Shown one piece after another: positions 17,325-20,213 of a stretch of DNA of 64,000 nucleotides. Location of the stretch: positions 1 through 64,000 of the forward strand of contig NZ_KV823549.1 of assembly GCF_001815985.1 (NCBI RefSeq). The letters run 5' to 3'. The notes beneath the pieces were generated by a model that ran no database searches, was not told where the DNA came from, and was given only the letters and a program-made list of their open reading frames with translations. How positions within the stretch are numbered: position 1 is the first letter of the stretch; every line of letters begins with the position of its first letter. Source of the DNA: Corynebacterium sp. HMSC27B11. GTDB lineage: Bacteria; Actinomycetota; Actinomycetes; Mycobacteriales; Mycobacteriaceae. The position numbers and the translations under genes were made by a program.

Positions 17325-18230
17325 ATGAGCACCGAGCAGGCTAGTAGCGCCGAATGGGCCGGAATCACCGTGGGAATCGACGTCGGTGGGTCCGCGATCA
17401 AAGCAGGCTTCGTCGACACCCGCTCCCACTGCCTCGTCGGGGAAAGATTCACCGCCCCTACACCCCAACCGGCCACGCCCGAGAGGGTTGCTGGCGCCGC
17501 CGCAGCTCTCGCAACGCAGGTACTCACCCAGGAGGTGGGCGCGGAGCTCACCACGCCTGCTAGCCCAGGCGGGTTCCGTGCGCTGCGGATCGGCGTCGCC
17601 ATTCCCAGCGTGGTCACCAACCAGGAGGCACGCACCGCAGCGAATATCGCACCGTCGTGGGTCGGCACCCGTCCCGCTGCGCTTTTCGACGACGCCCTGC
17701 GACAGGCGTTATCGGGTGGCACATCGGGGTCTTCCTCCCTCCAGGTGGAGTGGTTCTTCCTCAACGACGCCGACGCTGCTGGGATCTCTGAATGCGGCCC
17801 GTTTAGCGCCGACGAGACGGCCGACCCGGAATACAGCCGGCTTTTCCTAACCTTGGGCACTGGGATCGGCTCTGCTCTCTTCCGCGGCGCGAGGCTGTAC
17901 CCCAATACCGAGCTGGGTCACCTGACCGTGTTGACCGACGACGGCTCCCCCAGTGCTGCGGAGCATTGGGCCTCGGCCGCGGTGAAGGCACGCCAAAACC
18001 TCACGTTCCCCGAGTGGGCGGCCCGGTTGAGCACAGTACTCAATACCTATGTCGCACTGCTGCGCCCCCAGGAGCTGATCCTCGGTGGCGGAATTTCCGC
18101 CGAGGCAGAACGGTGGCTGCCGATGCTTAACCTCGAGGAGTCTTCGGTCCGGGTGAGCATCGCTCGCCACTTCAACAGCGCCGGGGTCATCGGAGCAGGG
18201 CTCGCCGCTGCCTGGGACCTACGCCCCTAG
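17325..18230 (+). CDS. ppgK: Polyphosphate glucokinase PpgK (ROK family)
   Basis: Cytosolic kinase that phosphorylates glucose to glucose 6-phosphate using inorganic polyphosphate, and usually also ATP. The 301-residue protein has the ROK phosphate motif VGIDVGGSAIKAG (16-28), the PpgK-typical TPQPATPERVA (46-56), the sugar-binding NDADAAG (147-153), LTLGTGIGSALF (175-186), NTELGHL (194-200) and LGGGISAEA. This pattern matches mycobacterial PpgK better than ordinary glucokinase. It precedes sigA, as in C. glutamicum and M. tuberculosis. It looks leaderless. If the cell lacks PTS sugar uptake, as the sugR locus hints, PpgK could be a major entry route for free glucose. That is inference. Confidence 0.92.
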   Translation: MSTEQASSAEWAGITVGIDVGGSAIKAGFVDTRSHCLVGERFTAPTPQPATPERVAGAAAALATQVLTQEVGAELTTPASPGGFRALRIGVAIPSVVTNQEARTAANIAPSWVGTRPAALFDDALRQALSGGTSGSSSLQVEWFFLNDADAAGISECGPFSADETADPEYSRLFLTLGTGIGSALFRGARLYPNTELGHLTVLTDDGSPSAAEHWASAAVKARQNLTFPEWAARLSTVLNTYVALLRPQELILGGGISAEAERWLPMLNLEESSVRVSIARHFNSAGVIGAGLAAAWDLRP

Positions 18231-18254
18231 ACGGCATGAGTAATAAAGCTTGGC

Positions 18255-18260
18255 TATAAT
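18255..18260 (+). promoter_or_regulatory. Consensus -10 (TATAAT) upstream of the sigA leader
   Basis: A perfect TATAAT preceded by TTGGC lies 25 nt behind ppgK. No good -35 is seen at 17 nt. Transcription from here would give sigA a 5' leader of about 318 nt. Confidence 0.55.
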
Positions 18261-18266
18261 GGTCGG

Positions 18267-18584
18267 CCGTTGGGCGCTTGAGCGCCAGAGGCAGCCTTTC
18301 AGCTGCTCAGAGAAACTGCTCCCCCAGTAAAATGCCGTCCGGTGAACCGGGTCGGTTGTACGCCACCGACACGAACTCGTTGGTGAACGTATGCTGGCGA
18401 GTAGAACTGAATGCGTCGTTTCCTGGTCGCTATCCACCAGGAAACGGCGAGCAAACGTAGTTTGGATAGCGACTGGTAGGAAAACCCCCAAGCGGGTGAC
18501 CTTCCTAAACGTACAGCGCGCTCGTCGGCTCTTCCCGGCGGTCGCACCCGTACGTTGCAACAATCCCCGACCGAAAGGGCTTCT
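18267..18584 (+). promoter_or_regulatory. Long structured 5' leader of sigA with competing helices
   Basis: This 318-base stretch has no gene but strong inverted repeats. Helix 1 pairs 18414-18426 with 18437-18449 (13 bp, one G-U). Its 10-base loop (18427-18436) is exactly complementary to 18463-18472, and the alternative helix 2 extends to 18419-18436 with 18463-18483, which would destroy helix 1. A third helix, 18477-18482 with 18502-18507, competes with helix 2. A further AACGTAC/GTACGTT pair lies at 18508-18514 and 18550-18556. I do not recognise a known riboswitch class. The ribosome site GAAAGGG lies at 18573. Confidence 0.6.

Positions 18585-20213
<1,629 letters not shown>

Follow-up and report, generated by a model that had tools for sequence, protein, structure and literature searches.

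The window, a 64,000-nt stretch of DNA from Corynebacterium sp. HMSC27B11, contains the primary sigma factor gene sigA (NCBIfam NF004560, RNA polymerase sigma factor, E 1e-262) and, upstream of it, a polyphosphate glucokinase-like ORF (ppgK; NF045942, 209 bits, under the cut-off of 250). The sigA reading frame as listed opens at an upstream TTG (18555) that is in frame with a GTG at 18585, and we consider the latter, which follows a GAAAGG ribosome-binding site, to be the most likely start. From this start, the SigA protein opens with a long N-terminal tail rich in lysine and alanine, followed by a strongly acidic stretch before the conserved core (18585-19250), and the length of the open frame around the core differs among relatives. 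At the beginning of the window, two tRNA genes (496-568 and 834-906) with equal Rfam scores of 71 bits lie in a small tRNA cluster and are possibly a duplication. The features of the sigA leader are collected in Table 1.

Table 1. Features of the predicted sigA leader, in window coordinates
Feature	Position	Strand	Remarks
-10 element TATAAT, context GCTATAATGG	18255..18260	+	Putative sigA promoter; predicted transcription start near 18267
Predicted sigA 5' untranslated leader	18267..18584	+	About 318 nt, from predicted start to sigA GTG
Putative 22-codon upstream ORF, MRRFLVAIHQETASKRSLDSDW	18411..18479	+	Spans H1 with its loop, and the 3' strand of H2
Hairpin H1	18414..18449	+	Arms 18414-18426 / 18437-18449, loop 18427-18436; from sequence, 13 pairs including one U-G
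H2 3' strand	18463..18476	+	Pairs with 18423-18436, 14 contiguous pairs; 18463-18472 span the whole H1 loop
Hairpin H3	18477..18507	+	18477-18482 / 18502-18507, with inner CCC/GGG pairs; four-genome alignment
Predicted helix H4	18508..18556	+	AACGTAC 18508-18514 / GTACGTT 18550-18556, encloses a small hairpin; alignment fold
sigA ribosome-binding site GAAAGG and GTG start codon	18573..18578; 18585..18587	+	Columns 18548-18586 invariant in four genomes

We found a putative sigA promoter whose -10 element, in its context, matches the extended -10 consensus of C. glutamicum, GNTANANTNG (PMC3917453), and whose surroundings (columns 18252-18266) show no variation in an alignment of four genomes, namely the window's own and those of three relatives, G079, G227 and G228. 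A two-hexamer promoter scan reported none in the region of 18255-18260, as is to be expected where a good -35 is absent. Upon searching other Corynebacterium sigA leaders by pattern, we obtained a comparable -10 located 66-388 nt before the sigA start in 78 of the 83 leaders that could be parsed, with the exact TATAAT in 43 of the 78; as the pattern requires T[CT]G after the -10, this search cannot prove that motif. Given the -10 in the window and its counterparts in other genomes, the segment 18414-18507 is very probably transcribed and lies inside the predicted sigA leader. By virtue of the predicted promoter, the gene resembles long-leadered primary sigma genes, with a sigma-A-type promoter and a leader of more than 100 nt, and further promoters are possible. 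In large groups of the genus, the bases right after the -10 (18255-18275) resemble one another (GGGCGGTCGAT, GGCACTTTGTC and GGCGAGTTGACC), a similarity that the search pattern itself partly demands through T[CT]G, and they are possibly a conserved discriminator or early transcribed sequence.

The initial annotation had described competing helices in this leader, and the pairings at its centre are real. The 13-bp hairpin H1 is present, and its whole 10-base loop, TCGCTATCCA, matches the reverse complement of 18463-18472 exactly. The arrangement exceeds chance. A scan of both strands of the window for such a geometry (a stem of at least 9 pairs, a loop of 6-16 bases and a 9-base loop complement at most 80 bases downstream) turned up no second case, and ten forward-strand mononucleotide shuffles of the 64 kb yielded one match in total. 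When the 137 bases downstream were shuffled 20,000 times, a complement to all 10 loop bases appeared once. In 10 of 5,000 shuffles, the downstream DNA could form a helix of at least 14 contiguous pairs with the 5' arm and loop of H1. Folded by itself, H1 reaches -22.8 kcal/mol (z -6.5), while in G228 the stability excess is weaker (z -1.5 for the 107-nt core). Across the four genomes, 96.2% of the H1 cells are paired and 11 of the 13 pairs are invariant; one pair is broken in G227 (18418-18445), and the sole compensatory pair, 18419-18444, reads T-A, T-A, A.A and A-T. The helix between loop and anti-loop is 100% paired, without a single variable column among its 20.

The alternative helices fared less uniformly. 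H2 had been drawn as 18419-18436 with 18463-18483, and these pairings exist in the window, but two genomes lack the outermost pair of the bulged extension, and one lacks a further pair. The part that holds is a bulge-free register of 14 pairs (18423-18436 with 18463-18476), in which all 56 of 56 cells are paired and 13 pairs are invariant, the remaining one changing from G-C to G-U. H3, of whose outer pairs five of six are invariant and one cell is unpaired, encloses a C-run that varies in length. It had been thought to exclude H2, but only the outer part of H2 in the bulged register clashes with it, and the bulge-free H2 directly abuts H3, coexists with it and stacks on it. The seven pairs of H4 are all invariant in the four genomes. 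The leader contains three copies of the motif AACGTA (18386-18391, 18454-18459 and 18508-18513), the second and third being invariant in the four genomes and the first not, and each copy can pair with part of GTACGTT at 18550-18556, which offers further alternative pairings upstream of the sigA ribosome site. A suggested pairing between CCTTTC (18295-18300) and the sigA GAAAGG was rejected: the motif exists in the window, but it is altered to CATTTC or CATTCC in all three relatives.

Conservation of the leader is local. In the four-genome alignment, the fraction of variable columns was 25% in 18267-18383, 15% in 18384-18410 and 5.8% (4 of 69) in 18411-18479, followed by 35% in 18480-18501, 31% in 18516-18547 and none of 39 in 18548-18586. 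Among the neighboring genes, two species pairs differ at 35-39% of four-fold sites in ppgK and at 26-27% in sigA. Windows of 69 bases as conserved as 18411-18479 were found in none of 284 positions in ppgK, where the median is 16 of 69 variable columns, and in 45 of 461 positions of the sigA coding sequence. Base pairing itself left few traces of compensation: there is one compensatory pair in the four sequences, which 224 of 500 shuffles did as well as and which lies below the mean of 1.6 in a separate set of column shuffles, no pair of the 14-pair H2 register changed on both sides, and over the whole region 1 of 118 predicted pairs is compensatory. None of these counts amounts to significant covariation. 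The consensus fold of the four leaders was matched by none of 30 column shuffles. Measured against the refuting condition of the initial annotation, the helices are conserved in relatives, as far as found only within a four-genome clade, and divergence in this clade is too low for a covariation test.

Among the Corynebacterium genomes searched, the element is confined to the C. urealyticum group. Upon searching 242 Corynebacterium genomes, 239 of which have a SigA match, we obtained strong matches in four, all of that group and all before sigA, and the same four genomes were returned by blastn, peptide and covariance model searches. With the leader DNA as blastn query, there were six matches, four of them strong; the weaker two (G207 and G142; E 2e-4 and 4e-4) were discarded, as by eye they sit inside seemingly unrelated coding sequence. 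The peptide of the upstream ORF gave nine matches, five of which were weak at E 1.3-1.9, and no clear homologue in the other 238 genomes. The covariance model gave eleven matches, seven of them weaker; the best of these, in G179 (E 5e-6), is an unrelated strong hairpin beside surface-protein-like ORFs and away from sigA, and was likewise rejected, and the second, in G055, has an E of 0.02. On 40 loci of other lineages, the same model returned one match at E 2.3. In a wider scan of contigs, a pattern of 20 fixed bases (the loop, 20-40 bases, the anti-loop) hit 18 stretches, two of them in the clade (L048 and L054) and 16 in other organisms. Within the window's own genome, the element is single-copy with no close repeat elsewhere, and the 16-base loop word occurs at four places at 2 mismatches. 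Among the literature titles and abstract openings surveyed, none named a sigA leader RNA element for Corynebacterium.

To set the window beside the rest of the genus, we used the sigA loci of 90 top-ranked SigA matches, a non-random sample with about 149 further genomes outside it. GAAAGG precedes the sigA start in 83 of the 90, and this motif served as the criterion for parsing leaders; the seven loci without a sigA start by this rule (L022, L058, L059, L060, L073, L091 and L097) were dropped, as were five more without a -10 by the pattern (L018, L034, L096, L099 and L108), leaving 83 and then 78. The predicted leader lengths of the 78 range from 54 to 376 nt (median 168), and by eye the middle parts of the leaders of other lineages look unrelated. 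Compared with 60 shuffles each, the window's leader folds at z -3.7, that of G228 only weakly better than shuffled at -1.7 and those of the other two relatives at -4.5 and -3.6; in a separate test, a 301-nt piece of the window's leader gave -3.6. Over all 78 leaders the mean is -1.25 and z lies below -2 in 20, indicating that structured leaders are common and not universal. We considered a pseudoknot-like architecture general to Corynebacterium sigA leaders and rejected it: the geometry of a hairpin with loop complement reached a score of at least 12 in 23 of 78 leaders compared to 13.2 expected, and a score of at least 16 in 4 of 78 (0.9 expected), all in the C. urealyticum clade. In 7 of 14 groups of related leaders, this clade included, the consensus energy was better than in all 30 column shuffles. 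Compensatory counts exceeded every column shuffle in 1 of the 14, a group from another Corynebacterium lineage (L102, L103, L110 and L113) with five compensatory pairs against a maximum of four in 30 shuffles, and this group may be a better case than the window for a structured sigA leader.

Predicted energies place the two folds close together. When H1 or H2 was enforced in the core of 104-107 nt, we obtained -38.6 and -34.7 kcal/mol for the window, -38.8 and -34.9 for G079, -35.0 and -32.8 for G228, and -34.4 and -35.0 for G227. The two states hence lie at most 4 kcal/mol apart in all four species and the sign flips, H2 being favored in G227 and H1 in the others; as the balance is not kept in sign across the four genomes, a tuned switch is not evident. 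In equilibrium folds of growing transcripts, H1 stayed at 0.97 or above in both the window and G079 and never fell below 0.81 in G228, while the H2 core of G227 reached 0.85, dropped to 0.22 once the H3 strand was made and stood at 0.78 in the full leader. Alternatively, the anti-loop strand could pair with the loop of an intact H1 as an H-type pseudoknot. A rough hand sum (the H1 fold with a free loop, -11.1 for eight loop pairs and an assumed penalty of about 8, an order-of-magnitude value) puts this state at about -36 for the window and likewise for G079, and at about -32 for both G228 and G227; by this estimate the pseudoknot is feasible, but it is not the lowest state.

We found no consistent effect of the choice between H1 and H2 on the predicted access to the sigA ribosome site. 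The predicted mean unpaired probability of GAAAGG was 0.51 with H1 and 0.28 with H2 in the window, and it was unchanged in the three relatives (0.67 vs 0.66, 0.51 vs 0.51 and 0.57 vs 0.53). Furthermore, a search for terminators, defined as a G+C-rich hairpin with a U run, found none in 18150-18700, which argues against an intrinsic attenuator, and with neither a terminator nor a masked ribosome site the leader has, by prediction, no riboswitch expression platform. Rfam 15 gave no match in 18231-18620, where E values as high as 1 were admitted, or in 20 loci of relatives, consistent with the initial annotation, which knew of no RNA class here. The initial annotation had also likened the chained exclusive pairings to the usual build of riboswitches and attenuators, a likeness that the lack of a terminator, the inconsistent opening of the ribosome site and the compatibility of H2 with H3 do not support. 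What remains of its proposal is a set of competing helices that are real, conserved in four genomes and near-balanced in predicted energy; their operation as a switch is not supported.

New in this analysis is a candidate 22-codon ORF that overlies the competing strands. Its ATG (18411-18413) sits at the foot of H1, and its stop codon TAG (18477-18479) lies just past the end of the H2 strand at 18476. The ORF is intact in all four genomes and free of indels, while indels occur at three sites elsewhere in the leader; relative to the window, G228 carries changes in two synonymous codons and G227 the replacements R3Q and T12S. A short ORF overlapping alternative helices, as found in leader-peptide attenuators, is hence present in 4 of 4 genomes. 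Its ribosome-site match is weak, at -3.6 kcal/mol compared to -8.6 for sigA and -2.9 for ppgK. With only four variable columns in the block, a coding test has no power. Among the degenerate third positions, 2 of 20 vary where 8.2 would be expected from ppgK rates (P 0.002) or 5.6 from sigA rates (P 0.05), and coding alone is therefore insufficient to explain the conservation. On these sequence comparisons, the safest account is a clade-specific structured element of the leader that can exchange strands or adopt a pseudoknot, and that appears to be held by selection on its nucleotides and not solely on a possible peptide.

We tentatively favor, at somewhat less than an even chance, a model in which a clade-specific element in the predicted sigA leader adopts two folds of near-equal predicted energy and tunes the SigA output per mRNA, as distinct from sensing a metabolite. 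During transcription, H1 would form first, after which 18463-18476 would pair with the exposed 10-base loop as with a built-in toehold. The outcome would be either a pseudoknot on the intact H1 or displacement of the H1 3' arm, giving the 14-pair H2 stacked on H3, and the fold adopted would alter the decay of the sigA mRNA or its ribosome loading, as we infer by analogy with the sigA 5' UTR of M. smegmatis. The sigA 5' UTR is 123 nt in M. smegmatis and 128 nt in M. tuberculosis, and measurements in M. smegmatis showed that the leader shortens the half-life of the mRNA and lowers apparent translation (PMC7148126). Like these genes, the one studied here encodes a primary sigma factor, starts at a GTG and has a leader that is longer than usual; it differs in a predicted leader of about 318 nt that holds a strand-exchange hairpin, and the measured effect pertains to M. 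smegmatis. By this analogy, the most likely role of the element would be to set the lifetime or the translation of the sigA mRNA.

The most interesting rival is a ribosome-operated switch, in which a ribosome passing, stalling or terminating on the 22-codon ORF would pick H1 or H2/H3 and thereby affect sigA. We regard this attenuator as unlikely. It would account for the coincidence of the ORF limits with the H1 foot and the end of the H2 3' strand, for the intact ORF with its mild amino-acid changes, and for the way constraint falls directly after the stop codon, where 35% of the columns in 18480-18501 changed. The ribosome-site match of the ORF is weak, however, its start codon adjoins a stable stem, its third positions are less variable than coding alone permits, it holds no run of one amino acid, its peptide lacks a clear homologue in the other 238 genomes, and in three of the four species predicted access to the sigA ribosome site does not depend on whether H1 or H2 forms. 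Translation attenuators of the ermC type combine a leader-peptide ORF with alternative hairpins. The present leader is like them in that a short ORF overlaps alternative hairpins, and unlike them in its weak start site and in that neither fold is consistently predicted to mask the ribosome site downstream. A bolder form, in which the loop acts as the toehold, translation of the ORF resets the structure, SigA synthesis reads the translation state and each lineage has an unrelated leader of its own, strikes us as rather improbable.

Conversely, the structure could have no regulatory function, being a stable hairpin, followed by a strand that is in part similar to it, in a fast-evolving leader, and still alike in four genomes through their kinship. 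This would fit the shallow clade, the confinement to it of all leaders scoring at least 16 with no repetition of the geometry in other lineages, and the stretches of sigA coding sequence that are equally conserved. The constraint is local, though, as it contrasts with the 25-31% of variable columns in the leader flanks and has no equal among the ppgK windows. We consider absence of function about as unlikely as the attenuator.

The other readings are weaker still. Competing helices and pseudoknot-capable loops occur in several riboswitches, and no Rfam class explains the element, but a metabolite-sensing riboswitch of an undescribed class is very improbable given its presence in four close genomes only, the lack of an expression platform and the single compensatory pair; sigA would also be an unusual target for a riboswitch. 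The leader is like riboswitches with pseudoknotted aptamers in that its loop can pair with a downstream strand and alternative helices exist, and unlike them in having no Rfam match, no expression platform found and a four-genome distribution. An operator palindrome acting at the DNA level for a transcription factor, which the initial annotation had offered as its alternative, is not favored and is, if anything, less probable: GTTTCCTGG-N10-CCAGGAAAC is a perfect inverted repeat, but it lies about 150 bp downstream of the predicted transcription start and inside the likely transcript, has a single look-alike, with 3 mismatches, elsewhere in the 2.19-Mb genome and hence does not recur as the site of a regulon would, and leaves the invariant, complementary loop and anti-loop unexplained. 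Just as remote, in our estimate, is autoregulation by SigA binding to its own mRNA leader to repress or stabilize it. In both mycobacteria and B. subtilis, sigma proteins co-precipitate sigma-factor transcripts, that of sigA included (PMC11077062), and the SigA encoded here has a long lysine-rich N-terminal tail, but the consulted sections of the same study report no such sigA enrichment for C. glutamicum (PMC11077062). The leader shares with these sigma-protein-associated transcripts a possible post-transcriptional control and a primary sigma gene, and differs in that those were enriched whole, with no leader element described in these sections (PMC11077062). The co-precipitation could moreover stem from nascent chains, and nothing in this analysis links the fold to SigA.

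Overall, the best reading of the locus is a fast-evolving leader within which the C. urealyticum group carries a strand-exchange or pseudoknot element. SigA drives most transcription, and to our knowledge the post-transcriptional setting of its amount has been little studied in Actinobacteria. If the element is functionless, it would serve as a warning that a perfect competing-helix design can occur in one shallow clade. If it works as proposed, it would be a compact and testable part for the control of SigA, and an instance of toehold-like strand exchange evolved within an mRNA. Across the genus, sigA genes with a similar -10 and GAAAGG and with unrelated-looking leaders of 54-376 nt form a natural series on what the leaders of sigma factors must do.
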